Positions 5,116 to 45,423 of a stretch of DNA of 52,998 nucleotides are shown here, one piece after another. The translations under genes and the position numbers were made by a program. Source of the DNA: Opitutaceae bacterium. GTDB lineage: Bacteria > Verrucomicrobiota > Verrucomicrobiia > Opitutales > Opitutaceae. Every line of letters starts with the position of its first letter. Position 1 is the stretch's first letter. The stretch is taken from NCBI GenBank assembly GCA_028284235.1, contig JANQSC010000067.1, positions 1 to 52,998 of the forward strand, read 5' to 3'. The notes under the pieces were generated by a model, which saw only the letters and a program-made list of their open reading frames with translations, was not told where the DNA came from and searched no databases.

Positions 5116-5297
5116 GAGCGGCGTCTTCGAGAGAGCGAATTCGCGCGTTTTTATCCTTCACATATCGTTGTCTTTCTCTTTCGTAGAGGGACGCCGAAAT
5201 GCGTGTTCGCGCCGCGGTCTTGTACGGGAAATCGGAGCGTCTCCGGACAGCCGGATTTGGAAAGCGATGCGAGCGGACTCACGACGGCGGTTCGATT

Positions 5298-6134
5298 ATG
5301 AATATCTACAAGGTTTTGCCTGATCTCAGCAACGAGCGCCAAATGCGCTTGTGGCACCAGGGGATCCGAAAGCAATGGTCCGCGGAGGACATCGACTGGA
5401 ACGCCCCGCGTCGCATCGGCGGCGAGAAAATCCGGGATCAACTGGGGAGGGTTTTGACCCCGGTGCTGACCGGCGAGCAATCCGCATTGTATTCAGTTTC
5501 TGGATTAATTCCGATTTTGGGGCACGAGTCGAAAGTGCCTGCCCAATTCTACCTGACGACCTGGGCCGTGGACGAGGCTCGACACACCGAATTGTTCGCT
5601 CGCTATTTCGGTCGCATCGATCGGGAGCCCTTGTCGATCCGAAAATTCCCAGCCGGATTTCTTTTCCAAAGCCGCATCATTTCCAAGGACCCATGCGAGT
5701 GGTTGACCGGCGTCCTAGCGAGCGAATCCATGGCTCAAGTCGTTTCCCACGAACTGCGCGATCTGGATCTGGATCCGGTTCTCAGCGATATTTGCGCCGG
5801 CATCATCGAAGACGAGTCCCGGCATCTCGGGTTCAATCACATCTATATTGAAGACCAGTTCCGCGATATGTTCGCCGCCGATCCGGAAGGAGCGGAAACG
5901 AAGGCCGAGAGTCTTCGGGCCCGAATGGACCACGTGCTGGAGGGAGTGCCGCCGATCATCAACGCGATTCGCGACGACATGAAGGACCTGGGAATCGATA
6001 TGGATCGGGTTCAAGATATCCTGGATCGCGTCGCCCGCCATCGACTGGACAAGGCGATTTACAGCGGGAAAGATCGCGCTTTGGGCACGAAAACGAGTCT
6101 CGCCGAGCCGGAAATCGAAGCGTCTCTGCAGTGA
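5298..6134 (+). CDS. ferritin-like diiron oxygenase/desaturase-type enzyme
   Basis: Predicted soluble non-haem diiron enzyme. From the ATG at 5298 it has 278 residues and the carboxylate-histidine pattern of a ferritin-like four-helix diiron site: E60, then E93-x-x-H96 in DEARH, E143 in SESMAQ, then E173-x-x-H176 in EDESRH. Such sites occur in AurF-type N-oxygenases, R2-like oxidases and acyl-ACP desaturases. Sequence alone does not tell which reaction this one performs. Its stop overlaps the start of the acyl-AMP ligase gene by four bases (GTGA), and an acyl carrier protein follows, so an acyl-ACP substrate is a reasonable inference. An in-frame ATG at 5199 would add 33 basic residues without family character. 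Confidence 0.8.
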   Translation: MNIYKVLPDLSNERQMRLWHQGIRKQWSAEDIDWNAPRRIGGEKIRDQLGRVLTPVLTGEQSALYSVSGLIPILGHESKVPAQFYLTTWAVDEARHTELFARYFGRIDREPLSIRKFPAGFLFQSRIISKDPCEWLTGVLASESMAQVVSHELRDLDLDPVLSDICAGIIEDESRHLGFNHIYIEDQFRDMFAADPEGAETKAESLRARMDHVLEGVPPIINAIRDDMKDLGIDMDRVQDILDRVARHRLDKAIYSGKDRALGTKTSLAEPEIEASLQ

Positions 6135-7876
6135 GCTCTGGAACTGCCGGAAAAAAGAAAGCCGCTCTGGTCGGGCGTCAGCGAACCAACAGTATCGAGG
6201 GGCTACCCTTCACGATAGGCGAGGCGCTCGAGCGGGCGTCGGCTGACTTTTCGGATCGAGGCATCCAAATGTGGGACCGGTCGGGACGGCGATTCGAGCG
6301 GATGACCTACGCTGAGTTGCTCGAACTGACGCGTTCGTATTGCGCCCGATGGCGTGCGGCAGGCGTGCAGGAAAAAGACCGCTTGCTGATTTGCTTGGGG
6401 ACGTCGCTCGACTTTGTCGGCGCGTGGCTGGGAGCGATTTGCGCCGGAGCCTATCCCGCTGCCATCGCTCCGGCGGTCGGCGGTTTGAAGGGGTCGAACC
6501 ACTTTGCCGCCAAGCTGGAGACGTTTCGGAACGTGATCGGCGCGTCCCGGCTGCTCATCTCGGAGCAGATGGTAGGCGACCTGCGCAAAGCCCATCCCGA
6601 TACCCTGGGGGCGATCGCGCTTTCACTGGGCGAGCTGCAGCAAGGCAGCTCCGAAAACGGGACCTTTGCCAATGCCAATCCGACGGAGCTCGCGTTCATG
6701 CAGTTTACCAGCGGCAGTACGGGAACGCCGCGGGCAGTGATGATCAACCATCGGATGGCGACCTCCAACGCCTACAACATCAACGAAGGAATCTACGTTA
6801 AATCGGGTCGACCGGTGGGCGACTATCCGATTGTCAACAATTCGTGGCTGCCCATGCACCACGACATGGGCTTGATCGGCTGCTTGATCTTCGCGATTGG
6901 CTGTGGCCTGGAGTTGAGCTTGATGAATCCGACGACTTTTCTGGCCCGCCCTTTGCGGTATTTGGAGGCGGCGCATGGGCGTGAGGCCCTGATTTCGGGT
7001 CCGAATTTCGGGTTTCAGTTTTGTGTCGACCGGCTGACTCCCGACGACGTTCAGGGGTTGGATTTTACTCGGGTCGAGTCTGCGATGACCGGATCAGAGA
7101 TGATCCGTCCGGAAACCATGAGCGCGTTTTGCGAGTTGATGACGGGCACCGGTTTTCGACCGGAGAATATGGCTCCTTGCTACGGGATGGCCGAGGCCAC
7201 GCTCGCGGTCACATTCGATCGTAAGAGAAAAGGCATCCGCACGCGTCCAGTTCCCAAAACCTCGGAGTTCGTCTTCGAGGATCAAGAAGTGGTGTGCGTC
7301 GGAGAACCGGTTCCCGATACCGAGGTGATCATCGCCAACGCGGCGGGCGAGGTGATGATGGAGGGCGAGCTGGGAGAGGTACAAGTAAAGGGATCGTCGG
7401 TATTTGATGGATACTACAACGACGGTGCCGCTTCCGCAGAGAGTTTGCGCGGCGAGTGGCTGAAGACGGGGGATATCGGTTTCGTTTACGATGGAGAGCT
7501 GTACATCGCGGGGCGGTCCAAGGAGATTCTAGTCATTCGCGGCGACAACGTTATGCCGCACGAAATCGAATGGCTCGCGGAGGAAGCCCGAGGCGAGAGT
7601 CAAAGCGCGGAACGCGTAGCGGCCTTTTCCGTAACGACGGAAGGCGTTGGCGAGGAGATCGCTCTGGTGGTGGAAACGACGCTGACGGACCCGCCGGCGC
7701 TGAAAGAACTGGATCACGCCATCCGCAGTCGTATCGGTCGAGGCTTATCCTATCCGGTCGCGGATCTGGTTTTTGTCCGCAGAGGTCGGATACCGCGGAC
7801 TTCGAGCGGCAAGGTCCAGCGGGGAGCGGTTAAGGAACAATATTTGAACGGCGCAATTGACCGGCTCGAATTTTGA
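6131..7876 (+). CDS. fatty acyl-AMP ligase (FAAL-type adenylating enzyme)
   Basis: Activates a carboxylic or fatty acid as acyl-AMP and probably loads it on the carrier protein encoded next door. Of 581 residues, the ANL-superfamily motifs are TSGSTGTPR at 193-201, YGMAEATLAV in the adenylate-binding region, TGDIGF with the C-terminal domain hinge, and a terminal SGKVQRG lysine motif. The GPNFGFQFCV and YGMAEATL segments resemble FAALs more than acyl-CoA ligases. The start is a GTG that overlaps the preceding stop (GTGA), so the two products are translationally coupled. Chain length and identity of the substrate cannot be read from sequence. Confidence 0.88.
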   Translation: MSSGTAGKKKAALVGRQRTNSIEGLPFTIGEALERASADFSDRGIQMWDRSGRRFERMTYAELLELTRSYCARWRAAGVQEKDRLLICLGTSLDFVGAWLGAICAGAYPAAIAPAVGGLKGSNHFAAKLETFRNVIGASRLLISEQMVGDLRKAHPDTLGAIALSLGELQQGSSENGTFANANPTELAFMQFTSGSTGTPRAVMINHRMATSNAYNINEGIYVKSGRPVGDYPIVNNSWLPMHHDMGLIGCLIFAIGCGLELSLMNPTTFLARPLRYLEAAHGREALISGPNFGFQFCVDRLTPDDVQGLDFTRVESAMTGSEMIRPETMSAFCELMTGTGFRPENMAPCYGMAEATLAVTFDRKRKGIRTRPVPKTSEFVFEDQEVVCVGEPVPDTEVIIANAAGEVMMEGELGEVQVKGSSVFDGYYNDGAASAESLRGEWLKTGDIGFVYDGELYIAGRSKEILVIRGDNVMPHEIEWLAEEARGESQSAERVAAFSVTTEGVGEEIALVVETTLTDPPALKELDHAIRSRIGRGLSYPVADLVFVRRGRIPRTSSGKVQRGAVKEQYLNGAIDRLEF

Positions 7877-8857: not shown

Positions 8858-9616
8858 ATGCGCTTTCGTCCCTGTATTGATCTTAAAGACGGAAAAGTCG
8901 TCCAAATCGTGGGCGGGTCGCTGAAGGATGGCGACGCCAACGCCCTCACTAATTTCGAAACGGAGCAGCCGCCGAGCGCTTTCGCTCAACGGTATCGATC
9001 GGACTCGCTGCCCGGTGGACACGTGATCGCTCTCGGACCCGGAAACACGGAGGCGGCCCTCGAGGCGCTAGGCGCCTATCCGGGTGGGATGCACTACGGA
9101 GGCGGTGTGAACCCGGAAAACGCGTCTCGCTTCTTGGACGCCGGAGCGAGCCACGTGATCGTGACTTCCTATGTGTTTTCACAAGGGGAAATCGACTGGG
9201 CCCGTCTTGTGAAACTGGTCGCGGAAGTGGGCAAGGAGCGTTTGGTTTTGGACCTGAGTTGCCGCAAGCGCGACGGGGTTTATTGGGTGGTGACGGATCG
9301 TTGGACGCGATTTACGGACTTGCCGGTCGACGCGGAGTCTTTGTCCAAACTCTCTGAATACTGCAGCGAATTCCTCGTGCACGGTGTCGACGTGGAAGGC
9401 AGAATGTCGGGAATCGAGACGGACTTAGTCGCTCTCCTCGGCCAAAAATGCCCCATCCCGGTCACCTACGCCGGCGGCGCCCGAAGTTTGGAGGACCTGG
9501 AATCGGTCAATCGCATTGGAGCCGGGCGCGTCGATCTCACGATTGGAAGCGCCTTGGATATCTTCGGTGGCGATTTACCCTACGCGGACGTAGTGGCTTG
9601 GAATCGACAGGCCTGA
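8858..9616 (+). CDS. hisA: eukaryote-type HisA (ProFAR isomerase)
   Basis: Catalyses isomerisation of ProFAR to PRFAR in histidine biosynthesis; a TIM barrel. The 252-residue sequence follows the yeast HIS6 pattern rather than the common bacterial HisA: PCIDLKDGKVVQIVGGSL at the start, GHVIALGPGN, VIVTSYVFSQGEI, LVLDLSCRKRDG, FLVHGVDVEG, TYAGGARS, and VDLTIGSALDIFGGDL at the end. The ATG immediately follows the acyltransferase stop, so it is in the same transcript. No other histidine gene is in the window. The assignment to the eukaryote-type subfamily rests on recalled similarity to HIS6. Confidence 0.9.
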   Translation: MRFRPCIDLKDGKVVQIVGGSLKDGDANALTNFETEQPPSAFAQRYRSDSLPGGHVIALGPGNTEAALEALGAYPGGMHYGGGVNPENASRFLDAGASHVIVTSYVFSQGEIDWARLVKLVAEVGKERLVLDLSCRKRDGVYWVVTDRWTRFTDLPVDAESLSKLSEYCSEFLVHGVDVEGRMSGIETDLVALLGQKCPIPVTYAGGARSLEDLESVNRIGAGRVDLTIGSALDIFGGDLPYADVVAWNRQA

Positions 9617-10313: not shown

Positions 10314-11750
10314 TCAGGATTTGAATGCGGGCTTTTCGCCGGGAACGGGCGAATTTTCGAAAAACCCGTGCTTCCGCAACGCCTCGCTCCCGCCGTACGA
10401 TTCCACCAGGGCTCTTTGGTCTGCTTTCGCTTGGGCGTCGACCGCCTCGGGATCGCAGATCTTGAACAACTCCGCAACGAGCCGCTCCCGTTCGGCAGCG
10501 TATTCAGGATTTTGGGATAGATCGTTGACTTCGCTGGGGTCGGCGGCGAGGTCGAATAGTTGAGGCTCTTGATGAGCGTGGTAGATCAGCTTGAAACGGT
10601 TGTCGGTGAGCAGGAAGGATCCGTTTTCACTGTTCAGCGCGTGGTATTCGCCGAAGACGATTCTGGATTGCTCCGTCTGATTTGCGAGTTCGACAAGTGA
10701 TCGGGCGTTTTGGTGCGGCGGCGTATCGAGTCCAAAGTTGTCGTACATCGTGGCGTGTACGTCCAAAAGGGATACGGGAGTTGAACAGGCATTCCCAGCG
10801 GGGATACCGGGACCAGCGATGATCATGGGGACGCCACCTGATTCCTCGTAGTGGGTGAATTTGCCAAAGAGGCCGCGGGCGGAAAGACATTCGCCATGGT
10901 CGGTCGAGTAGAGGACACGTGTATCGTCTTCCAAGCCGCAACGTTCGAGCGCTTCGAAGACGCGGCCGATTTGAGCGTCGAGAAAATGGGTGAGCCCGTA
11001 GTAGGCGTGGATCAGGTTTTTGATCTGCGCGTCGGTGTGTTGTTCTTCCGCGTCGAAATAGCGTCGCATGAACTGGTAGTGAGGATGCTGGGGCCAGTCT
11101 TCCTGACGCCATTGGGGCGGTCGAGGCAGGTCGTCGGGATTGAATTTATCGAGGTATTTTTGCTCGACTTTATACGGCGGATGCGGACATACGAGCGATA
11201 GAAACAGGGCCCACGGGGCGTCGTCGTTGGAGCGCGACTCGAGCCACTCGATGGCTTTGTCGGCGTTGGAAATGTCGTATTGCTGATACGTGGTGTCGCC
11301 CACGCCTGCGTTGTTGATGCCGTCGCGGCGCTTGCGCAGAGGCGGATCGTCGCGTAGGCAGCCGAGCGGGTCGCCAACGCCTCCGACTACATGGAGCGGC
11401 TGGATTTCCTGGGAAAAGCCGTTGTCGTCCTCCTCACTACGGTAGTGGAGTTTTCCGATGAGATCGATGGTGATTCCATTGTCCCGCAGCTCGTGATGCC
11501 AGCTTCGTTCGCTTCCGTTGTAGGGGAAGGCGTTGTCCCAGTTACCGATTTCGTGGACGTATTTTCCGGTCGCGAGCGACGCGCGGGCGGGCACGCAGAT
11601 GGGGCAAGTGGTGTAGGCTCTCGAGAACACGGTTCCGCGACGGGCGAGGGCGTCGAGGTGGGGCGTGACGTTTTGGTCGCTGCCGTAGCAGCCGGCGACG
11701 TGTTTCTGGTGCTCGTCCGAGAGGATAAAAAGGAAGTTCGGTTTTTTCAC
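10314..11750 (-). CDS. cysteine-type sulfatase
   Basis: Formylglycine-dependent sulfatase of the alkaline-phosphatase superfamily. From the GTG at 11750 it has 478 residues. The metal-binding SDEH (D12) opens the domain, C52-VPAR is the sulfatase signature whose cysteine is converted to formylglycine, and STDHGE supplies further metal ligands. No signal peptide is seen with this start. A longer in-frame start at 11891 adds a proline-rich stretch and overlaps the divergent galM, so it was rejected. The substrate is probably a sulfated sugar, as for most sulfatases of marine PVC bacteria; that is inference. A formylglycine-generating enzyme is needed and is not in this window. Confidence 0.88.
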   Translation of the reverse strand: MKKPNFLFILSDEHQKHVAGCYGSDQNVTPHLDALARRGTVFSRAYTTCPICVPARASLATGKYVHEIGNWDNAFPYNGSERSWHHELRDNGITIDLIGKLHYRSEEDDNGFSQEIQPLHVVGGVGDPLGCLRDDPPLRKRRDGINNAGVGDTTYQQYDISNADKAIEWLESRSNDDAPWALFLSLVCPHPPYKVEQKYLDKFNPDDLPRPPQWRQEDWPQHPHYQFMRRYFDAEEQHTDAQIKNLIHAYYGLTHFLDAQIGRVFEALERCGLEDDTRVLYSTDHGECLSARGLFGKFTHYEESGGVPMIIAGPGIPAGNACSTPVSLLDVHATMYDNFGLDTPPHQNARSLVELANQTEQSRIVFGEYHALNSENGSFLLTDNRFKLIYHAHQEPQLFDLAADPSEVNDLSQNPEYAAERERLVAELFKICDPEAVDAQAKADQRALVESYGGSEALRKHGFFENSPVPGEKPAFKS

Positions 11751-11877
11751 GAATCGGAGGGGTGGTGGAAGTGGGGAGCAGAGTTGACGAATGCGACTGC
11801 AGGTCAAGCCCCGGGGCGGTTTGGGCCTCGGTGGATCTTGACCCGCAGCGGTTCCCGGGCTTGGATAGCGGTCTTCC

Positions 11878-12891
11878 ATGAAAGAGTTCACCCTGAAAAA
11901 CGAGAATGGAATCGAAATGGTGGTTTCGGATTTCGGGGGAATTGTCCGGCAGCTGCGCGTTCCTGATCGCGATGGGCGGTTTGACGATGTCGTTCTCGGA
12001 TTTGACGCGATCGAATCGTATTTCGACGGGTCTCCCTACTTCGGCGCTTTGGTGGGGCGCTACGGGAACCGCATTGCCAAGGGCGGCTTTTCGCTCGACG
12101 GTCGCGCGTACACACTCGCGAAAAACAACGGGGAAAACCACCTTCACGGGGGAATCCAAGGGTTCGACAAACAAGTTTGGAAAACGGAGAGAATCGAGGG
12201 CGAAGGGTTTACCGGATTGGTCTTGAAGTACCGCAGCGAGGATGGCGAGGAAGGGTATCCAGGAAACCTCGACGTGGCGGTTGCCTATAAATTGACTAAC
12301 GCGAATGAGTGGATTATCGAATACAAGGCGGTCGTGGACCAATCGACTGTCGTGAATTTGACCCAGCACGCTTACTTCAATTTGCGAGGGCATTCCGCGG
12401 GAGACATTTTGGGGCACGAACTTGTTTTGGAAGCCGACGGATTTACGCCGACAGACGACACTCTCATTCCGACGGGCGAAATTCGCTCGGTCGAAGGATC
12501 GCCCTTCGACTTTAGAACGAGCTGCGTGATCGGGGAGCGTATTGACGATGCGGACACGCAGCTCGAGCAAGCAGGTGGCTACGATCACAATTTCGTTCTC
12601 AACAAGTCTTCGTCGGGGGCCTTGGAGCGGGCGGCGTTGGTGTACGAGCCGGAATCGGGCAGGACGATGGAAGTGCTCACCACGGAGCCCGGCGTGCAAT
12701 TTTATAGCGGGAACTTCCTCGACGGGTCGGCGATTGGAAAGAGGGGAACCGCGTACGCCAGCCGGAGCGGACTGTGCTTGGAAACGCAGCACTTCCCGGA
12801 TTCCCCCAATCAGCCCCAGTTTCCATCGACGCGACTCGATCCGGGCGACGTGTACGTCTCGACGACCGTGTACCGCTTCGGCAGTCGCTGA
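11878..12891 (+). CDS. galM: aldose 1-epimerase (mutarotase)
   Basis: Interconverts alpha and beta anomers of galactose, glucose and similar aldoses. The 337-residue protein has the family motifs GRYGNRIAKGGF, NGENHLHGG (catalytic-region histidines H88/H90), LTQHAYFNLRG, and the C-terminal glutamate motif LCLETQHFPDSPNQPQFPS. No signal peptide is present, so it is cytoplasmic. It is divergent from the sulfatase with 127 bases between starts, suggesting shared control of a sugar-use locus. Confidence 0.93.
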   Translation: MKEFTLKNENGIEMVVSDFGGIVRQLRVPDRDGRFDDVVLGFDAIESYFDGSPYFGALVGRYGNRIAKGGFSLDGRAYTLAKNNGENHLHGGIQGFDKQVWKTERIEGEGFTGLVLKYRSEDGEEGYPGNLDVAVAYKLTNANEWIIEYKAVVDQSTVVNLTQHAYFNLRGHSAGDILGHELVLEADGFTPTDDTLIPTGEIRSVEGSPFDFRTSCVIGERIDDADTQLEQAGGYDHNFVLNKSSSGALERAALVYEPESGRTMEVLTTEPGVQFYSGNFLDGSAIGKRGTAYASRSGLCLETQHFPDSPNQPQFPSTRLDPGDVYVSTTVYRFGSR

Positions 12892-35990: not shown

Positions 35991-37331
35991 ATGTGTACCC
36001 TGAGAGGCCAAGTTTGGCGGCGTTTTTCTCGAGCGATCGTGTGGAGCGCGAGCGGCGCGCTCTCATCGCTGTGTTTCGCCGAGCTGTCGGATGCGGACTT
36101 GCGGGCGCTGAGTCAGGATCCGCTCGCGGTGGCGGCGGGCAAGGCGACTTACCAGTCGATGTGTTTCAGTTGTCACGGGCAGCAGTTGGAAGGGGGAACG
36201 GGATTCGACCTGCGCGACGGGGAATGGAAGCACGGCGGAAATCCAAGCCAGATTCTGACGAGCATCCGAAACGGCTTTCCGGACAAGGGGATGGTCGCGT
36301 TTGGCGCCGTATACGACGAGACGACTCTGAATCAGCTGGTCGCCTATATTCTGACGGAGCAAATTGGATTTCGCGGATTGAGCTACCGGACGTACGAAAA
36401 TCCTCCGACTGCCTTGAAGGTGTCTCAAGTCGCTAAAACGCGAGCGAGCAAAGGGGGCGACTTGCCGATGGGCTACATCGATGTGTCGCTCGCGGAATCG
36501 GAACGATACGCGATGGTCTTCGAAGGGGCCTTGCTGGTGCCGAAAGAAGGCGAACATGTTCTAAAAGTCGTCCAGGCGAAGGAACCCGAAATATTTGTCG
36601 AGATCGATGGAGCGGTCCAAACCCCGCGAGACGGCGGCAACGCTGAGCTTCACTATCCGGTCGCCAATGGGCAACGGGCCATTCGGCTCAGCTACCTGAA
36701 GCGGAATGAGAAGTCGAAGATCCAAGTCTTTCTGCAAGGGGAAACCTTGCTTCTCCCGTTGTCGGAAGTGGCGCGCAAGCGAATGGCGGCTACACTATTT
36801 CCAGTCACTGTCGCGGAGCGGCCGGTGGTGGTGCGCAAAAAAATCGACAATCTTCCTCCCAAGAGTATTGCGGTGGGGTATCCGGGCGGATTGAATTATG
36901 GATACAGTCCGGTAACGAATTCGATCGTCGGACTTTGGCAAGGGGAGTTTCTCAATATCGGCCCGAACATCGACGGTCGAGGCAAGGATCCCAGCCGAAT
37001 AATGGGTTCGTGGATTTTCTTTGACTCGCCGGGAATCCAACTGCTGGCCAATGGAGAGCCGGTCGAGGGCGGATTTAAAAAATACGCCGTCGGCGATCGA
37101 CCGACTTTCGAATACGGCGAGAAGAAGCGGCGAGTCGTCGTGTCCGCGGAACCTGCCGGTCCGAGCGTCATGCGCTTTCAGTTCGAGTTGAGCGGGCTCG
37201 CCCGCCAGCGTATCGTTCTGAGGATACCGGAGGGAATCACGATTGAATCCGAGGACGGAGCGGTTCTTGCCGGGCGCTTGATCGTCGACCGCGCGAAGCG
37301 TAGTCGATTTAGCATTACGGTTTCGAAATAG
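35991..37331 (+). CDS. exported cytochrome c protein with C-terminal beta-rich region
   Basis: A 446-residue periplasmic protein. After a signal-like N-terminus (VWSASGALSSLCFA) comes a class I cytochrome c domain with C58-FS-C61-H62 and a probable axial methionine in DKGMVAFG. The C-terminal 280 residues contain a PA14/CBM-like beta region (MVFEGALLVPKEGEHVLKV, EIFVEIDGAVQTPRDGG) and then a segment not recognised (VGYPGGLNYGYSPVTNSIVG). The gene is followed after 10 bases by a beta-propeller gene, so they form one unit. The pair resembles the membrane-bound dehydrogenase/haem-binding proteins of PVC bacteria; reaction unknown. Confidence 0.8.
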   Translation: MCTLRGQVWRRFSRAIVWSASGALSSLCFAELSDADLRALSQDPLAVAAGKATYQSMCFSCHGQQLEGGTGFDLRDGEWKHGGNPSQILTSIRNGFPDKGMVAFGAVYDETTLNQLVAYILTEQIGFRGLSYRTYENPPTALKVSQVAKTRASKGGDLPMGYIDVSLAESERYAMVFEGALLVPKEGEHVLKVVQAKEPEIFVEIDGAVQTPRDGGNAELHYPVANGQRAIRLSYLKRNEKSKIQVFLQGETLLLPLSEVARKRMAATLFPVTVAERPVVVRKKIDNLPPKSIAVGYPGGLNYGYSPVTNSIVGLWQGEFLNIGPNIDGRGKDPSRIMGSWIFFDSPGIQLLANGEPVEGGFKKYAVGDRPTFEYGEKKRRVVVSAEPAGPSVMRFQFELSGLARQRIVLRIPEGITIESEDGAVLAGRLIVDRAKRSRFSITVSK

Positions 37332-37341
37332 GAGTGGTGGC

Positions 37342-38841
37342 ATGTTGAAACTCAAATTTGAGACGAATCAAACGTCAGCGAGTCATTCTGTTCGTCGTTC
37401 CGTTTTAAGAATGGCGGGCACGGTTTTTTTGCTCACCGCCTCAGTCGGCAGTAGCATTGCGTTGGCTCAAGAGACGATTGCTCCGGAAGGATACTCGATA
37501 CGGACTATCGAAACGCCGGAAGGTGTTCGTTTTGGAGTGACGGGGCTGGACATCGACACGGACGGCGTCGTTTGGGTGGCGACGCGTATCGGCGATGTAT
37601 GGTACAACCAGAATGGCGAGTGGTCTCAGTTCGCCTCCGGATTGCACGAGCCAACCGGTCTGCTGCGCGATGACGACGGTTCGATTGTAGTCGCCCAGAA
37701 GCCGGAACTGACACGGTTGGTGGATGTGGATGGCGATTGGAAGGCGGACGAGTTTCATCAGATTACCAGCGGCTTCGAGTTTCACGACAATTATCACGAA
37801 TACCACTATGGTCCGCTCAAGGACGCTCGCGGCTATTACTATGGCGCTCTCAATTTGGATCACCGAGCTCCGGGCACGTTCAGCCTCGGAGCAATGGGGA
37901 GTTCGGGAGGCTACCGCGGCTGGACGTATCGAGTTCATCCGGACGGGACCTTTGAGCCGTGGGCTTCCGGCATGCGCTCGCCGGCGGGGATGGGAATGAG
38001 TCCGCGCGGCGAGTTGTTCTACATCGACAATCAAGGCGACTGGGTCGGAACGTCGAAGTTGCATTTGATCGAAAAGGGGAAGTTTTTCGGTCACCCCGTG
38101 TCCTTGGTGGATCGTGGGTTTTCGGTCGAACATATCCGTGGAGCCACTACCGACGATCTCGATCGGCTGCGTCAGGAACCGGTGGTTTGGATTCCTCACA
38201 ACGAAGTTGCGAATTCCCCCGGAAATCCGGAGTGGGATACGACTCAAGGCGGCTTTGGGCCGTTTGCAGGGCAGATTTTCGTCGGCGATCAGACGCAGTC
38301 GAATATTTTTCGCATTTCACTGCAAAAGGTGAAGGGCGTGTATCAGGGGATGGTCGTGAATTTTATGAATGGATTTCAAAGCGGAAATATCCGTTTGCGA
38401 TTCCACCCGGATGGCAGCCTTTGGGTTGGTCAAACCGGACGCGGTTGGGCGTCGAAGGGCGGTCGCCCGTACGGAATGCAAAAGGTGGTTTGGGATGGAA
38501 CGAATCCATTCGAAATTCGGGATATCAAGCTAACGGATACGGGATTCGCCATCAGCTTTACCGAGGAACTCGATCGTTCTCTGATCGATCTGGATACTGT
38601 GAGCGTTTCCCGGTTTCGCTATCCGTATCGTTCCGACTACGGGTCGCCGAAGACTGATGTAGAGCATCTCGATGTTCAGTCGACCCATTTGCTGGTCGAC
38701 CGCAAGACGTTGTCGGTCAAGGTCCCGCTGATGACGGGGCGTGTCTACGAGTTCGAAATCAATCGGCTTCGGAGCGCGAGTGGGCGGAAGGTAAGCGTAT
38801 CACAGGCGTTCTACACGGTGAACAATCTTATTTCGCCTTAA
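37342..38841 (+). CDS. exported beta-propeller protein (DUF7133-like, PVC type)
   Basis: A 499-residue protein with a long basic N-terminus and signal segment (MAGTVFLLTASVGSSIALA). The beta-propeller has repeated motifs typical of soluble quinoprotein-like and membrane-bound dehydrogenase proteins (TGLDIDTDGVVWVATRIGDV, GLLRDDDGSIVVAQKPELTR, HPDGTFEPWASGMRSPAGMG, LRFHPDGSLWVGQTGRGWAS). No haem motif is present here; the neighbour at 35991 supplies one. A good ribosome-binding site (GGAGTGGTGG) precedes the ATG. The two genes probably encode partners in a periplasmic oxidation of a sugar or alcohol; inferred. Confidence 0.8.
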   Translation: MLKLKFETNQTSASHSVRRSVLRMAGTVFLLTASVGSSIALAQETIAPEGYSIRTIETPEGVRFGVTGLDIDTDGVVWVATRIGDVWYNQNGEWSQFASGLHEPTGLLRDDDGSIVVAQKPELTRLVDVDGDWKADEFHQITSGFEFHDNYHEYHYGPLKDARGYYYGALNLDHRAPGTFSLGAMGSSGGYRGWTYRVHPDGTFEPWASGMRSPAGMGMSPRGELFYIDNQGDWVGTSKLHLIEKGKFFGHPVSLVDRGFSVEHIRGATTDDLDRLRQEPVVWIPHNEVANSPGNPEWDTTQGGFGPFAGQIFVGDQTQSNIFRISLQKVKGVYQGMVVNFMNGFQSGNIRLRFHPDGSLWVGQTGRGWASKGGRPYGMQKVVWDGTNPFEIRDIKLTDTGFAISFTEELDRSLIDLDTVSVSRFRYPYRSDYGSPKTDVEHLDVQSTHLLVDRKTLSVKVPLMTGRVYEFEINRLRSASGRKVSVSQAFYTVNNLISP

Positions 38842-39108: not shown

Positions 39109-39381
39109 ATGAAACCGGAAGAAAAACAGAACACAGTCGAATTGTATTTCATGGAGGCGCGGGCGAAGCTGATCGACATTGCCGCGTTCATGGATCGCGT
39201 CGAACGGGACGGGCTCACCGACGATTTTCGCTATATCGCCTTCAAGGAAGCGCTCAAGGAGTTGGATACGGACAAGCGGACGGAAAACGTGCTTTTATCA
39301 TTGAGTGATCCGACCGATGAGCTGATTCCGAAGGCGACGACAAAAGCGGCCTGCGGCGCTTGGCCCGACAAACCCCAATGA
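39109..39381 (+). CDS. 90-residue protein coupled to eboB (possible EboA substitute)
   Basis: First gene of the ebo cluster by position. The 90-residue product is mostly helical, with a YFMEARAKLIDIAAFMDRVE start and a C-terminus reading LSLSDPTDELIPKATTKAAC then GAWPD. It has no signal or membrane segment. Its TGA overlaps the ATG of eboB (ATGA), so it is almost certainly translated with EboB. Canonical EboA is a larger protein; this one is too short and not recognisably the same. It may stand in for EboA or be a distinct lineage-specific subunit. This placement is inference from position. Confidence 0.75.
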   Translation: MKPEEKQNTVELYFMEARAKLIDIAAFMDRVERDGLTDDFRYIAFKEALKELDTDKRTENVLLSLSDPTDELIPKATTKAACGAWPDKPQ

Positions 39382-40181
39382 GATACATAGAACCGCATGC
39401 CCACATGGTCAGTCGGACGACTGACGACTACTTGGCGATGGTTACCGCTGGCTGTAAAGCGGTTTGCGAACCCGCTTTCTGGGCGGGATTCGACCGGAGT
39501 TCCGCTAACGGATTCTACGACTATTTTTGCCAACTTACCGACTACGAGCCCAAGCGCGCCGCCAAGTTCGGCCTGCCGCACTATTCGTGGCTGTGCATCA
39601 ATCCGAAGGAGTCCGAGGATGTTGCTTTGGCGGAGGAAGTGATCGCCATGATCCCCGATTTCCTTCCGCGCGAGAACGTGTTGGGAATTGGCGAGATCGG
39701 GTTGAACAAGAACAGCCGCAACGAAATGGCGGTCTTGGAGAAGCACGTCAATCTAGCGGCGGAGAACGACCAGCTGATTCTCGTGCATACGCCCCATTTG
39801 GAAGACAAGCGCAAGGGCACGCAACTGATCGTCGATCTCATAAAAAGCGACTCGCGCATTGATCCGGGAAAGGTGCTCATCGACCACGTCGAGGAGCATA
39901 CTGCGAAATACGTTATGGACGCCGGCTTTTGGGGCGGGTTGACCTTGTATCCAGAATCGAAATGCACGTCGGCCCGGGCGATCGACATTTTGGAGAATTT
40001 CGGCTCGGAGCGACTTTGGATGAATTCCGCTTGCGACTGGGGCGTCAGCGTTCCGCTGGCCGTGCCTTACGCGGCCCAGGAAATGCGTCGCCGCGGCTAC
40101 GGCGACGCCGCCATCGACGAGGTGTTCTACCAGAATCCAGCGCGATTCCTCAGCCAATGCCCGAATTTTAAGATTCGCTGA
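39378..40181 (+). CDS. eboB: EboB, TatD-family metal-dependent hydrolase
   Basis: A 267-residue TatD-like amidohydrolase barrel of the Ebo group. Metal-ligand positions are visible: H7-A-H9 in EPHAHMVSR, E106 in GIGEIGLNK, H137/H140 in LVHTPH, H170 in LIDHVEEH and D220 in SACDWG. The start EPHAHMVSRTTDDYLAMV is characteristic of EboB rather than of general TatD nucleases. In cyanobacteria EboB is one of the proteins needed for metabolite traffic to the periplasm, but its reaction is not known. Translation is coupled to the preceding 90-residue protein. Confidence 0.88.
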   Translation: MRYIEPHAHMVSRTTDDYLAMVTAGCKAVCEPAFWAGFDRSSANGFYDYFCQLTDYEPKRAAKFGLPHYSWLCINPKESEDVALAEEVIAMIPDFLPRENVLGIGEIGLNKNSRNEMAVLEKHVNLAAENDQLILVHTPHLEDKRKGTQLIVDLIKSDSRIDPGKVLIDHVEEHTAKYVMDAGFWGGLTLYPESKCTSARAIDILENFGSERLWMNSACDWGVSVPLAVPYAAQEMRRRGYGDAAIDEVFYQNPARFLSQCPNFKIR

Positions 40182-40216
40182 AAAAGCGAACGAACTTGGA
40201 ACTTAAGAGCATTCAA

Positions 40217-40306
40217 GGTAGCGGCCGACCTCCGGGCGGCCACTGAACGATGAAGTCGTTCAGCAAGAGCGGATTCATCATGGCCGCCCGGAGGTCGGCC
40301 GCTACC
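40217..40306. repeat. REPIN-like inverted repeat with 26-bp perfect arms (GTAGCGGCC family)
   Basis: Arms 40217-40242 and 40281-40306 are perfect inverted copies (GGTAGCGGCCGACCTCCGGG outward end). The 38-base spacer contains its own hairpin, CTGAACGA/TCGTTCAG (40243-40263). It lies between eboB and eboE. A single arm of the same family is at 35-60. Confidence 0.85.
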
Positions 40307-40400
40307 TGATTTTGAAAAGACTCGCAGATACGAGCCGCCGGCGCAGTTTTTTCGTGGCGCTCGTCTGGTATCGAGCTAAACCGTCGAGTTGCCACCCCCT

Positions 40401-41576
40401 ATGAAACTAGCGAACCAAGGTCATTTAGCCTATTGCACGAACATCCACCGCGGGAGTTCCTGGGCGGAAACGCTCGACTCGCTCGACCAATACACGATGC
40501 AGGTGCGCGAACGCGTCTGCCCAGACGATCCCTACGCGATCGGTTTGCGCTTGAGCGCTTCGGCGGCGCGCGATCTTTCCGATCCCAGCGCGCTGTCGGC
40601 GTTCCGAAAGTGGCTGGACGATCGAAACTGCTACGTCTTTACGATCAACGGATTCCCATACGGCGATTTCCATGGCACGCGGGTGAAGGAGGAGGTCTAC
40701 CGGCCTGATTGGACGACGCCCGAGCGCGTGGAGTATACGAAGACGCTCTTCGATTTGATCTGCGCCATCGCTCCGGAAGGGATGGAGGCGAGCGTGAGCA
40801 CCGTTCCGGGCTCTTTTAAGCGTTTCATTACCCAAGAAGCAGAGCAGCGCAAAGCGATGTACGCGAATCTGGCCACTTGCGCTGAGTATATCGAGACACT
40901 CAGCGAACGGACGGGCCGCGATTTGCATCTGGGCTTGGAGCCCGAGCCGCTGTGCTATTTTGAAACGAGCGCGGAAACGGTTTCGTTTTTCGATGGTTTG
41001 CTGGATTCTCGTCCGAATGAACGGGAGCGCTTGTCGCGTCGATTGGGCGTGAACTATGACGCCTGCCACTTGGCGGTCGAATACGAATCGGCGGACGAAT
41101 CACTCGAGCGCCTGGTCGATAGCGGGATTCGCATCAGCAAGCTCCACTTGAGCGCGGCTTTAAAGGTCGCGGATTTTTCTGCGCCAACGCTGGAGACCCT
41201 GGGCGGGTTCTGCGAGCCGGTTTACCTGCATCAAGTAGTGGCTCGAACAGGCGAGGCTCCGCTCAAGCGCTACGAAGATCTCGACGCGGCGTTGGAAGCG
41301 CGAGCGAGCGGGGAGGACGACGCGGACGAGTGGCGGATTCATTTCCATATACCACTGCATCATTCACCGGCGCCGCCACTGAGCTCTACGAGCGACCATA
41401 TTGCGGGCGTATTGGATTTCTTGAAAGAGCGACCGGAAATCTGCCGTCATTTCGAGATGGAAACTTATACTTGGGAAGTCCTGCCGGGCGAAATCGGCCA
41501 GGTAAGCGTCGTAGACCAGCTCTCTCGCGAGTACGAGTGGACGCTGGAGCAGTTTGCGAATAGGGGGCTGCTCTGA
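40401..41576 (+). CDS. eboE: EboE, xylose isomerase-like TIM-barrel protein
   Basis: A 391-residue sugar-isomerase-fold protein. The opening LAYCTNIHRGSSWAETLDSL is the typical EboE signature. Further landmarks are YVFTINGFPYGDFHG, LGLEPEPLCYFETSAE and VNYDACHLAVEYE (metal-site-like Glu, Asp and His), and FHIPLHH near the end. It probably binds a divalent metal, but the substrate is unknown. NCBI-style naming for this family is metabolite traffic protein EboE. A REPIN precedes it and another follows, so it may not be co-transcribed uniformly with its neighbours. Confidence 0.88.
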   Translation: MKLANQGHLAYCTNIHRGSSWAETLDSLDQYTMQVRERVCPDDPYAIGLRLSASAARDLSDPSALSAFRKWLDDRNCYVFTINGFPYGDFHGTRVKEEVYRPDWTTPERVEYTKTLFDLICAIAPEGMEASVSTVPGSFKRFITQEAEQRKAMYANLATCAEYIETLSERTGRDLHLGLEPEPLCYFETSAETVSFFDGLLDSRPNERERLSRRLGVNYDACHLAVEYESADESLERLVDSGIRISKLHLSAALKVADFSAPTLETLGGFCEPVYLHQVVARTGEAPLKRYEDLDAALEARASGEDDADEWRIHFHIPLHHSPAPPLSSTSDHIAGVLDFLKERPEICRHFEMETYTWEVLPGEIGQVSVVDQLSREYEWTLEQFANRGLL

Positions 41577-41586
41577 GGAGGCTGGC

Positions 41587-41674
41587 GTAGGGCCGGCGCT
41601 TGCGCCGTGCCGCGTTGTTCGAGGATAAGGGTATGTGATTTTGATACGCGGCACAGCGCAAGCGCTGGCCCTAC
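41587..41674. repeat. REPIN-like paired inverted repeat (GTAGGGCC family, copy 3)
   Basis: Arms 41587-41614 and 41647-41674 (28 bases each) begin GTAGGGCC and are inverted around a 32-base spacer. The left arm folds as CGGCGC-TT-GCGCCG after GTAG. It starts ten bases after the eboE stop codon. Confidence 0.8.
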
Positions 41675-41964
41675 GGAGCGGGGTAAGATGCTCTGTATCA
41701 CGCCCAATCACCCCGATTTCGTCCTATTTCCCCGACTTTCGTGAAAAATCCACGTCACTGGATGTGGAATCGAGTCACTCGACGGAGAATCCTGCCGTCG
41801 TAGGAGCATTCCCGCCACCATTGTGTATTTACGACAGGACGGGTAGATCCGCGACACAGCAGGACATTCGCGTCATTGGGCGGAAAATCGCGTCGCTATT
41901 GTAGTTTATGCACCCTCGATTGTGTAAATCGATGCTGCTACGGGGCTTATAGAGGCGAATTTCG
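41675..41964. other. intergenic DNA before eboC
   Basis: About 290 bases with no gene; including the REPIN, 388 bases separate eboE and eboC. It is less GC-rich than its surroundings and may carry a promoter for eboC-eboD-eboF. No -35/-10 pair with acceptable spacing was found; the best candidates are TTGTGT at 41920 and TATAGA at 41948, with too long a spacer. Confidence 0.4.
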
Positions 41965-42876
41965 ATGAAAATGTGCTCGCAGGACGCTCGGTTTCGCTTT
42001 CCTCTAGTGGGGATGCTTCCTACTCGGGCACTGTTGGTATTAGGCAGGGTATCAAACCTCTCCACGGTTTGGGCGAATTGTACGTGCGCTTGGCTCCTGG
42101 GCTACGGGAATTCGCCTGTTGTGTTCGTCTCCCTGCTGTTCGGGACAAGTCTGATGTACGTCGGCGGGATGTACTTGAACGACTACTGCGACGCGGAATT
42201 CGACGCCCGCAATCGTCCTGAACGCCCCATTCCATCTGGTCAGGTGACGCGTGATCAGGTGCGTTTGATCAGTATTGGACTCCTTGGTGGCGGCTTTTTG
42301 CTGGTCGCCTGGACCGGTTTTGCCACTGCCCTCTACGGCGCGGTGCTGGTTGGTTTAATCGTGGCGTATAATCTGGTCCACAAGAAGACTGCTTGGGGCG
42401 TCCCGATCATGGCTGCCTGCCGGGCGATGCTGTACCTTGTTGTCGGCTCCGCCACGGCTTACGGAGTCGATGGGGACACGAAGTGGGCGGCGGCGTTGAT
42501 GTTCCTGTACGTTTACGGAATCACAACGTTGGCTCGAAACGAATCGACCTCGGAGGCGATTCCAGTTTCTGGAGTAATTACCCTTGCGGCTCCGTTCGTC
42601 ATTCTGCCAGTGATCGGGTTTTCGAACGATGGCTTTCTGGGTTCGTTGCTAGGAGTCGCGGTCGGTCTCGGCTGGGCTCTGTTCTCGTTTTGGCGGGCGA
42701 ATTCGGGAGATCGCGTTATTGTTGGAAAAACGATTGGGCCCTTGCTGGCTGGAATCTGTCTCGTGGATTGGGCGATTCTCTTCAGTATGCGCTTCTTTTC
42801 GCTCGAGATTGCCTTAGCGTTTTTGGCTTTTTTCGTGATCGCTTTAGTGGCGCAACGACGTATTCCTGCCTCCTGA
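41965..42876 (+). CDS. eboC: EboC, UbiA-family prenyltransferase
   Basis: A polytopic membrane protein of the UbiA superfamily, 303 residues and about eight or nine membrane segments. The first Asp-rich motif is N72-D73-YC-D76-AEF-D80, followed by RNRPERPIPSGQ, the usual UbiA sequence. The second Asp-rich motif is less clear. It is most similar in type to EboC, which has been proposed to prenylate or otherwise handle a precursor during export. The start at 41965 has a GAGG nine bases upstream; an ATG at 42013 is an alternative giving 287 residues. Ten bases separate it from eboD. Confidence 0.88.
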   Translation: MKMCSQDARFRFPLVGMLPTRALLVLGRVSNLSTVWANCTCAWLLGYGNSPVVFVSLLFGTSLMYVGGMYLNDYCDAEFDARNRPERPIPSGQVTRDQVRLISIGLLGGGFLLVAWTGFATALYGAVLVGLIVAYNLVHKKTAWGVPIMAACRAMLYLVVGSATAYGVDGDTKWAAALMFLYVYGITTLARNESTSEAIPVSGVITLAAPFVILPVIGFSNDGFLGSLLGVAVGLGWALFSFWRANSGDRVIVGKTIGPLLAGICLVDWAILFSMRFFSLEIALAFLAFFVIALVAQRRIPAS

Positions 42877-42886
42877 CGCTGTTCCG

Positions 42887-44053
42887 ATGTCCGAATTTTC
42901 CCCTATCGAATATCCCATCAAAATCCCGTATCTGCTGCGTGTGTACTTTACGAAGGGCGCCTTCGATACGAGCAATCCGCTGTTTCGCGATCTCGCGTGT
43001 TCGCGAGAAAGCGGGAATCGGCGCAAGGCCTTGTTCTACGTGGATGAGGCTGTCTCGGCCGCTAATCCGGATTTGTCGGCAAATATCGAGTCCTACTTCG
43101 CCCATTATAGCGAAGAGCTACGCCTGATGGGGGTTGAAACGCTTCCGGGAGGCGAATCGCTCAAGAACGACGACAGGTGTTTGGACCGAATTTACGCTGA
43201 CATTGAGAACCGCAAAATCTGCCGGCACAGCTACATCGTAGCCATCGGCGGAGGCGCCTTGCTCGACACGGTGGGATTCGCAGCGGCGACCGCCCATCGC
43301 GGAATTCGGCATTTTCGTTTCCCGACGACTACGCTTGGTCAGGCCGACGCGGGCGTGGGGGTGAAGAACGGGGTGAATTTCAACCGAAAGAAGAATTTCG
43401 TCGGCGCTTTCGCTCCCCCGTTTGCGGTCGTTAACGATTTCAGTTTTCTAGAGACGCTGCCTGAAGTGCATTTGCGCAATGGATACATCGAAGCAATCAA
43501 AGTGGCGCTCATTCGCGACGCGACATTCTTTGATTGGATCGAGACGAACGCGGAAGCGCTCAACCGGTTCGACACGGAAGCGATGGAGACTTTGATCCAT
43601 CGTTGCGCTGAACACCATGTCGCTCACATCGCGACTTCGGGCGACCCGTTTGAAATGGGTTCGGTGCGTCCATTGGATTTCGGGCATTGGGCGGCTCACA
43701 AGCTGGAGCAGCTTTCGGAATTTGCGCTGAGCCACGGGGAGGCGGTCGCCATTGGTATCGCTATCGATACGCTTTATTCGGAAGAAATGGGCTACTTGGA
43801 AGCGAAGAGCGCCGAACGGATTCTGGCGCTGCTTAAGACCCTGAACTTCGAAATTTACTCGGACCACTTGGAGCGTCGAAACGGGAGTCGATTTCCCTAT
43901 GTTCTGGAGGGGCTCGAGGAGTTTCGCGAACACTTGGGGGGACTGCTGACGATTACCTTGCTCAAACGCGTTGGTTCGCGCTTTGAAGTACACGAAATGA
44001 ATACCGACGTGGTGCTGCGGGCCATGAGTCGGCTTAAAGAGCTGAGCGCGTAG
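42887..44053 (+). CDS. eboD: EboD, 3-dehydroquinate synthase-like protein
   Basis: A 388-residue member of the sugar phosphate cyclase (AroB-like) family. The NAD-binding GGGALLDTVG (121-130), QADAGVGVKNGVN, and the zinc ligands E202 (GYIEAIKVALIRD), H267 (DFGHWAAHKLE) and H283 (LSHGEAVAIG) are all present, so catalysis is likely. The neighbours mark it as EboD rather than housekeeping AroB: the QADAGVGVKNGVN motif differs from AroB QVDSSVGGKTAVN. It may cyclise a sugar phosphate other than DAHP; the true substrate is unknown. It is separated from eboF by two bases. Confidence 0.9.
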   Translation: MSEFSPIEYPIKIPYLLRVYFTKGAFDTSNPLFRDLACSRESGNRRKALFYVDEAVSAANPDLSANIESYFAHYSEELRLMGVETLPGGESLKNDDRCLDRIYADIENRKICRHSYIVAIGGGALLDTVGFAAATAHRGIRHFRFPTTTLGQADAGVGVKNGVNFNRKKNFVGAFAPPFAVVNDFSFLETLPEVHLRNGYIEAIKVALIRDATFFDWIETNAEALNRFDTEAMETLIHRCAEHHVAHIATSGDPFEMGSVRPLDFGHWAAHKLEQLSEFALSHGEAVAIGIAIDTLYSEEMGYLEAKSAERILALLKTLNFEIYSDHLERRNGSRFPYVLEGLEEFREHLGGLLTITLLKRVGSRFEVHEMNTDVVLRAMSRLKELSA

Positions 44054-44055
44054 CT

Positions 44056-45423
44056 ATGAATCGCGTAGCGGTCATCAACGTTGTCGGGCTGACGCCCGCT
44101 TTAATTGGAGAGTCTACGCCGAACATTCGTCGATTTTCCGAGCGCTACGCGGTGACCGCCGTGAAGCCGGCGTTTCCCGCGGTCACTTGTACCGCTCAGT
44201 CGAATATGCTGACCGGCGCCCCACCGTCCCGACACGGCGCCGTCGCCAATGGCTGGTACAATCGTGAATACAACGAGACGCATTTTTGGAAGCAGTCCAA
44301 CCGGCTCGTGCATGGGCCGAAAATCTGGGACGAGTTCAAACGGGAGAACCCGGACTTCACCTGCGCCAAGATGTTCTGGTGGTACAATATGTATTCGTCA
44401 GTGGACTACTCCATTACGCCTCGTCCGATGTACCCAGCGGATGGCCGGAAGTTTTTCGACGTGTATACGCACCCCATGGAGATGCGTTCCGAAATGAAAA
44501 AAGACATCGGCGAGTTTCCATTCCATACGTTTTGGGGGCCGCGCGCGGGAATCGAGAGCTCGCGCTGGATTGCGGAGTCGGCCAAGTGGGTGGAGCGCAA
44601 ACGGGAGCCAACGCTCAACTTGATTTACCTGCCGCATCTCGACTACAACTTGCAGCGACTCGGCCCGTCTCATCCCGATATCGCCCAGGACTTGGGATCG
44701 ATCGACGAAGTAGTCGGGGATCTGATCGAGTTTTTCGAGGGACGTTCGATTCGGCCGCTGATCGTTTCGGAGTACGGGATCAGCGACGTGGATCGCCCCG
44801 TTCATCTCAATCGCGTTTTTCGAGAAAGAGGTTGGATCACAATTAAGGACGAACTTGGTCTGGAACAGCTCGACTGCGGAGCGAGTCGGGCCTTCGCTGT
44901 CGCGGACCATCAAGTGGCTCACGTCTATGTGAACGATCCTAGTATTTTGGACGAGGTAAAAGCGACGCTCGAGTCGATCGACGGCGTGGAGCGTGTACTG
45001 AGTGCGGAAGGGAAGCGCGACGCGGGAATCGACCACGAGCGCTCGGGAGATCTGATCGCGATTGCGGATGCTCGGAGCTGGTTCACCTACTATTACTGGC
45101 TCGACGACGCGGTCGCTCCCGATTTTGCCCGCTGCGTCGATATTCATCGAAAAGTTGGATACGATCCCGTCGAGCTGTTTGTGGATCCGAAACTGAAGGC
45201 GCCCGCCCTGAAGATCGGGGCCTTTTTGTTGAAGAAGAAACTGGGATTACGAGGTCTGTTGGACGTAATCCCCCTGGACGCGACCTTAGTGAAAGGATCC
45301 CACGGTCGCATCCCGGAGAGCGAGACCGAGTGGCCGGTCTACATCGGACCGAGAACATCCGGCAAGATCGAAGACTCGACCGACATTTTCGGAGTAATTA
45401 GAGAAGCCGTCGCAGGCGAATAA
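44056..45423 (+). CDS. eboF: EboF, nucleotide pyrophosphatase/phosphodiesterase-like protein
   Basis: A 455-residue alkaline-phosphatase-superfamily enzyme of the NPP type. The probable nucleophile is T44 in AFPAVTCTAQSNMLTGAPPS, with metal-ligand sequences LPHLDYNLQR, SEYGISDVDRPVHLN and KGSHGRIP. No signal peptide is present, so it is cytoplasmic. It is the last gene of the eboC-D-F unit and is followed by a 42-bp perfect palindrome. Confidence 0.88.
   Translation: MNRVAVINVVGLTPALIGESTPNIRRFSERYAVTAVKPAFPAVTCTAQSNMLTGAPPSRHGAVANGWYNREYNETHFWKQSNRLVHGPKIWDEFKRENPDFTCAKMFWWYNMYSSVDYSITPRPMYPADGRKFFDVYTHPMEMRSEMKKDIGEFPFHTFWGPRAGIESSRWIAESAKWVERKREPTLNLIYLPHLDYNLQRLGPSHPDIAQDLGSIDEVVGDLIEFFEGRSIRPLIVSEYGISDVDRPVHLNRVFRERGWITIKDELGLEQLDCGASRAFAVADHQVAHVYVNDPSILDEVKATLESIDGVERVLSAEGKRDAGIDHERSGDLIAIADARSWFTYYYWLDDAVAPDFARCVDIHRKVGYDPVELFVDPKLKAPALKIGAFLLKKKLGLRGLLDVIPLDATLVKGSHGRIPESETEWPVYIGPRTSGKIEDSTDIFGVIREAVAGE

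Follow-up and report, generated by a model that had tools for sequence, protein, structure and literature searches.

An EboG-type ebo gene cluster in an Opitutaceae bacterium most likely makes a prenylated cyclitol

The ebo genes occur in many phyla. In Nostoc the scytonemin monomer does not arrive in the periplasm without them, and they have also been tied to nematode resistance in Pseudomonas (PMC6282210). Their canonical arrangement, eboABCDEF, is found in cyanobacteria, Bacteroidetes and eustigmatophyte plastids. A variant operon, in which a gene named eboG replaces eboA while eboB to eboF remain in one cluster, was described from Deinococcus, Herpetosiphon, an acidobacterium and Thermithiobacillus (Yurchenko et al. 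2016, PMC5133447); the hypothesis of an isoprenoid-cyclitol pathway comes from the same work, and a lipid carrier made by the Ebo enzymes was proposed by Klicki et al. 2018 (PMC6282210). Here we report the analysis of a 52,998-nucleotide stretch (the window) from an Opitutaceae bacterium whose draft genome measures 6.13 Mb and is 97% complete. The window is an entire contig and contains a six-gene ebo cluster at 39109-45423, with all genes on the + strand in the order G-B-E-C-D-F:

39109-39381, + strand: eboG, 90 amino acids (aa), occupying the place of eboA, with profile matches in other loci
39378-40181, + strand: eboB, TatD-like metallohydrolase, 267 aa (PF01026, 28.4 bits)
40401-41576, + strand: eboE, xylose-isomerase-like TIM barrel (NF035939, 455.7 bits)
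41965-42876, + strand: eboC, UbiA-superfamily prenyltransferase (PF01040, 81.7 bits)
42887-44053, + strand: eboD, predicted sugar phosphate cyclase, not AroB (NF004852, 529.7 bits)
44056-45423, + strand: eboF, alkaline-phosphatase-superfamily (NPP-like) protein with a putatively remodelled metal site (PF01663, 198 bits)

The original prediction had recognized the cluster and its B-E-C-D-F order on the + strand, both of which were borne out together with the coordinates in general, but it counted five genes, overlooking eboG although its own start coordinate (39109) is that of eboG, and two starts had to be moved (to the ATG at 39378 for eboB and at 40401 for eboE). Its view of the host as a PVC-type bacterium is confirmed by the nearest named EboE loci, which belong to Opitutales metagenome-assembled genomes (74% and 69% identity, among the best 80 loci). 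It had also noted the lack of a canonical EboA. EboA is indeed missing (0 matches in this genome), but since eboG sits before eboB the cluster belongs to the EboG variant described in 2016, and because eboG replaces eboA there as well (PMC5133447), the absence is not new. The window cluster is thus a further case of a known type. It differs from that of Deinococcus in gene order (D-G-B-E-C-F there) and shares the EboB to EboF families with the canonical clusters, which have EboA where this one has EboG, and it is not known to be linked to scytonemin; the string "Verrucomicrob" does not occur in the main text of PMC5133447, which reports three unclustered Planctomycetes. The genes are tightly packed in part (a 4-nt overlap of eboG and eboB, and spacings of 10 nt for eboC-eboD and 2 nt for eboD-eboF), with gaps of 219 and 388 nt flanking eboE on the eboB and eboC sides, respectively. 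The order is complete in 19 of 27 stretches fetched from relatives, the remaining eight being truncated by contig ends or having members not nearby (EboE was present in 29 of the 115 relatives searched, counting this genome).

We consider that the six genes most likely (with a probability of about 0.6) direct the synthesis of a prenylated cyclitol. In the pathway that we infer, down to each substrate and product, the order of the steps, the binding of EboG to EboB and the role of the lipid, EboD would form a polyhydroxy ring from a sugar phosphate. This ring would be reshaped by EboE and by EboB with its small partner EboG, EboC would attach a prenyl chain at the membrane, and EboF would act in a phosphate-bearing step, though not as a standard NPP hydrolase. 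The observations behind this scheme are the content and order of the genes, an EboD sequence that differs from AroB, the exchange of EboD for inositol phosphate synthase (MIPS), the co-occurrence of EboD, EboE and EboF, the pairing of EboA or EboG with EboB, and residue signatures in EboC, EboD and EboF.

We favor a prenyl-cyclitol pathway because EboD is replaced in other lineages by MIPS, a different cyclitol-making family. The best 80 loci in our EboE scan of genome contigs were titled Verrucomicrobiota (save one named only "bacterium"), so that other phyla are represented here by plasmid records alone. Among the 48 plasmid records with EboE, EboD adjoins it in 15 (Ketogulonicigenium, 5; Mycetohabitans, 3; Salipiger, 2; Deinococcus, 2; Azospirillum, Roseivivax and Aureibacter) and MIPS lies at about 5 kb or less in 29 (Streptomyces, 25; Embleya, 2; Nonomuraea and Gemmatirosa), with no record carrying both cyclases among the matches listed (all 44 for MIPS, the best 60 of 115 for EboD). 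The sample is uneven, 29 of the 48 records being from Streptomyces, and as many of these are near copies, the number of independent MIPS lineages is far below 29. Three annotated Streptomyces clusters hold in a single row MIPS, a UbiA of SCO3242 type, a TIM barrel, EboA, EboB, EboE and EboF; compared with the window, their EboB-like and EboF-like proteins are shared, as is a UbiA bearing EboC motifs, MIPS replaces EboD and the TIM barrel is extra. These shared elements, again with MIPS and an extra TIM barrel, are seen in three haloarchaeal plasmids (TatD, TIM, UbiA and TIM genes plus MIPS and NPP; in a fourth, MIPS was not in the stretch seen), with no EboE profile match in the Halocatena cluster scanned. 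All three MIPS proteins checked have both Pfam domains, and in a 12-row tree eight cluster-linked MIPS sequences and one from Halomarina form a clade (98/97), with Arthrobacter (on a long branch), Roseomonas and Runella outside. Since Gemmatirosa combines MIPS with EboG, the EboA/EboG and EboD/MIPS choices vary independently.

This exchange was not found in print (no literature linking ebo genes with inositol synthase was found in searches that did not reach most subscription journals), and it is new support for the isoprenoid-cyclitol idea of 2016. It points to a class of compound and makes the question of the product testable, and the database name "metabolite traffic protein" may accordingly mislead.

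A chance assembly of housekeeping menaquinone and shikimate enzymes could be suspected from the membership of the genes in the UbiA and DHQ-synthase superfamilies. We regard it as highly improbable, given a separate AroB elsewhere in the genome (contig C46; 348.9 bits, cut-off 305), two further UbiA proteins encoded elsewhere, the gene order kept among relatives and the near-strict co-occurrence described below; the earlier claim that the UbiA and AroB-like proteins are not housekeeping enzymes thus stood. EboD exceeds the cut-off of its own family model (333) and scores 218.6 bits with AroB (cut-off 305). Numbered from the Met at 42887, its Zn ligands E202, H267 and H283 and most catalytic residues are kept across the alignment (64 rows, 61 distinct; here and below, row counts contain a few repeats from four contigs entered twice, and distinct counts are dereplicated). 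With K250, N268 and H275 of 3-dehydroquinate synthase (DHQS) taken by us as the numbering reference, H244 falls at the position of Lys250 and D264 at that of Asn268, while H271 retains His275, a signature seen in 63 of 63 readable rows. The Lys and Asn expected of a 3-dehydroquinate synthase are therefore His and Asp in EboD, and the third residue is Pro in a Nostoc cyclase and in the Streptomyces clavuligerus protein annotated as a sedoheptulose 7-phosphate cyclase. By these sequence features EboD is distinct from AroB.

Co-occurrence was assessed across 288 Verrucomicrobiota genomes. EboE is present in 112 of them (109 over cut-off), and EboD over cut-off accompanies it in 111 and is found in none of the 176 genomes lacking EboE; the sole exception (G220) has a partial EboE match. 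Positions were compared in 55 of the 111 genomes, a half chosen by hand, and in 23 of these EboE and EboD are more than 10 kb apart or on different contigs. An EboF-like protein at E≤1e-60 occurs in 110 of the 112, and all 41 EboF-like matches above 500 bits are in EboE genomes. EboG was detected in 57 genomes, 40 times strongly (all EboE genomes) and 17 times weakly (16 in EboE genomes); paralogues may be among the weak matches, such as the second copy in the genome studied here. EboA occurs in 6 genomes, all of which have EboE but not EboG (one more match, of 23 bits, was dropped). MIPS was found in 8 of the 288. Fisher values for these associations overstate the number of independent events because the genomes share kinship. 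In 50 EboE genomes neither EboA nor EboG was detected by profile; in stretches fetched from six of these, E, D and F were present in all, C in four and EboB nearby in one. The four with EboC (L197, L198, L200 and L202), from other Verrucomicrobiota, show a compact C-F-D-E layout with a shorter EboF.

The EboG profile matched 62 loci (59 distinct), some of them outside Verrucomicrobiota, in Gemmatirosa and on two plasmids of Deinococcus. Judged on open frames, EboA or EboG is immediately upstream of EboB in 69 of the 71 distinct loci holding either one (57 of 59 for EboG and 12 of 12 for EboA). The G-B pair persists even where the other ebo genes scatter, for example in the Verrucomicrobiota genome G132, where eboG and eboB are together at 1.44 Mb while eboE is found at 24 kb, eboD at 976 kb and eboF at 1.82 Mb, and EboG is for this reason most likely a partner of EboB. 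Its AlphaFold2 model has three helices (pLDDT 85.6), and a fold search returned no PDB match under E 5. A relationship of EboG to EboA was considered and found unsupported, hhalign of the two families giving a probability of 0.15%. The genome also has a second, weaker EboG-EboB pair on another contig (C60; locus L189:5787-8083), with the two EboB copies 48% identical; it adjoins a gene that by eye is ThuA-like.

The membership of the remaining proteins in Ebo families, part of the original prediction, was confirmed over cut-off for EboE (cut-off 250) and EboD. EboC remained below it (96.6 bits vs 250; its other top NCBIfam match, SCO3242, gave 106.6 vs 260) but shares the family motifs. An Azospirillum EboC from a complete cluster scores 89.1 with this model. 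The NDxxDxxxD motif is retained in 91 of 91 EboC, SCO3242 and haloarchaeal UbiA rows, and in these same rows the second Asp motif is replaced (Ala/Ser in 88, Arg/Lys in 83 and Glu in 88 of 91); the window protein has both NDxxDxxxD and the motif ending in Glu. The second Asp motif itself is present in the comparison rows, digeranylgeranylglyceryl phosphate (DGGGP) synthase and the MenA-like UbiA of the same genome. By sequence, DGGGP synthase, which O-prenylates a polyol phosphate, is the nearest solved structure (26.9 bits).

For EboE, a profile search against PDB sequences gave nothing under E 0.49, and a fold search with its AlphaFold2 model (pLDDT 92.9) placed AsbF, Art22, a tagatose-epimerase-like protein and IolI closest; AsbF and IolI are enzymes acting on ring compounds, and we count these matches, like that of EboC to DGGGP synthase, in favor of the cyclitol pathway. 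The similarity of EboB to TatD is weak, and its putative metal ligands H7, H9, E106, H137, H170 and D220 (Met = 1) are each kept in 74 to 76 of 76 rows (73 distinct). EboF was aligned with another PF01663 protein encoded by this genome, one that carries the standard metal and nucleophile set, which we take to be D, T, D, H, D, H, H. In EboF only T44, D196 and H416 are kept, the other four of the seven positions of an NPP phosphodiesterase being V10, Q200, E239 and Y240. Q200 and E239 are found in 57 of 57 EboF rows (54 distinct), V10 and Y240 in 56 of 57, and six proteins of the shorter form have the same Q and Y with Asp at the E239 position. As four ligand positions are replaced, a standard NPP mechanism appears doubtful for EboF. 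The claim that the catalytic residues of EboB, EboD and EboF are all intact consequently survived for EboB and for the Zn ligands and most catalytic residues of EboD, but not for the two changed DHQS positions or for EboF. The genome has 133 PF01663 matches, many of them weak or partial and, we would guess, mostly sulfatases; among them is the protein at 10314-11891 of the window, with a choline-sulfatase match below cut-off.

Several observations weigh against a prenyl-cyclitol product. EboF-like proteins at E≤1e-60 occur also in 24 genomes without EboE; one MIPS genome (G044) has EboE and EboD as well; neither cyclase was seen, among the matches listed, in 4 of the 48 EboE plasmid records (Streptomyces NBC_01244, NBC_01562 and NBC_01340, plus one record cut at its end); and a search of 8 kb around the Halomarina MIPS that falls in the cluster-linked clade showed no ebo genes. 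The fold similarity of EboE is at superfamily level (TM about 0.5). MIPS keeps the phosphate on its product. Since sugar phosphate cyclases release it (PMC5133447), the rings from EboD and MIPS would not be identical, leaving it unclear where EboF fits. In the literature no named Ebo product was found.

The phenotype of the Nostoc mutants is of export type: in all the ebo deletion mutants that were made, the scytonemin monomer stayed in the cytoplasm (PMC6282210). The Ebo proteins could thus, in line with the original prediction, form an export machine that takes a metabolite from another source through the inner membrane, and a full ebo set is said to lie inside the EDB cluster of Pseudomonas fluorescens NZI7 (PMC6282210), which, unlike the window, is tied in a review to tryptophan-derived indoles. 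We consider this unlikely. Profile scans matched no transporter family among the six proteins, EboC alone comes from an integral-membrane family, other lineages have MIPS in place of the ring-making gene, and a lipid carrier was itself proposed by the authors of the Nostoc study (PMC6282210). The conclusion that the cluster must serve another cargo does not follow for the same reasons, the traffic name resting on that one phenotype.

The other difficulty comes from EboC. Its homologue Ubi-297 and two further homologues farnesylate 8-hydroxyquinoline-2-carboxylic acid in vitro, and the reported acceptors of Ubi-297, quinolines included, are all aromatic (Amiri Moghaddam et al. 2022, PMC9235831). 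A pathway that turns the EboD ring into an aromatic one, with EboC transferring its prenyl chain to an aromatic acceptor, would also suit the best fold match of EboE, AsbF, titled a probable 3-dehydroshikimate dehydratase, and the PF12902 ferritin-like genes found beside ebo genes in three phyla. On the other hand, MIPS in the place of EboD would give an inositol phosphate, far from aromatic, and PF12902 was not found in this genome, making such a pathway quite unlikely here.

Returning to the prenylated cyclitol, one may extend it, as a tentative proposal with rather less than an even chance, to a modular pathway of bacteria, plastids and haloarchaea, in which a prenyl-cyclitol membrane lipid would take its ring from EboD or from a dedicated MIPS branch, EboA and EboG would be interchangeable as partners of EboB, EboF, with its alkaline-phosphatase fold, would have a new metal site and a new chemistry, and the lipid would serve secreted redox enzymes or cargo, of which scytonemin would be one example.

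Outside the six genes, the following features were considered:

35991-37331, + strand: cytochrome c gene, possibly but weakly linked to the cluster
37342-38841, + strand: beta-propeller gene, possibly but weakly linked to the cluster
40217-40306, no strand: palindromic element in the eboB-eboE gap, its arm recurring a third time at the contig start (35-60)
47412-48440, + strand: zinc dehydrogenase of the medium-chain dehydrogenase/reductase (MDR) family by family match, a possible accessory gene

The earlier statement that the neighbors do not reveal the cargo held, no adjoining gene being conserved among the relatives' stretches compared. The cytochrome c/beta-propeller pair was rejected as cargo-linked: among the relatives fetched it precedes eboG in two only (L034 and L035), and it scores 30.2 bits with the ScyE family (cut-off 80). 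The MDR dehydrogenase is the first gene after eboF in three of five same-genus genomes extending past eboF (L034, L036 and L041) and was not found in L035 and L040; in the window it lies two genes further downstream.

Beta-propeller redox-type genes (of ScyD/E family, pyrroloquinoline quinone dehydrogenase and GSDH types) adjoin ebo genes in unrelated hosts (L067:3207-4406, L063:14693-16840 and L167:12574-15237, in addition to 37342-38841 of the window). In Pseudomonadota, Bacteroidota and Cyanobacteriota, ebo genes have as neighbors a large protein without Pfam match and a ferritin-like PF12902 protein (L068:3897-6979, L154:2043-5103 and L155:10858-14139); PF12902 is presumably linked to VioB and RebD, with a VioB-type role, and a connection to indole-dimer chemistry is possible. 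On the plasmid of Streptomyces NBC_01244 (L150), EboE lies amid a type II polyketide synthase-like cluster, and the stretch yielded no further ebo gene. The long eboE-eboC intergenic region (41580-41960) contains, by eye, apparent degenerate short repeats. Elsewhere in the window, a eukaryote-type HisA is encoded at 8858-9616 (TIGR02129, 341.8 bits, cut-off 229.3), and at 5199-7876 a weak match to R2-like ligand-binding oxidases (40.8 bits, cut-off 194) lies next to a fatty acyl-AMP ligase-like gene.

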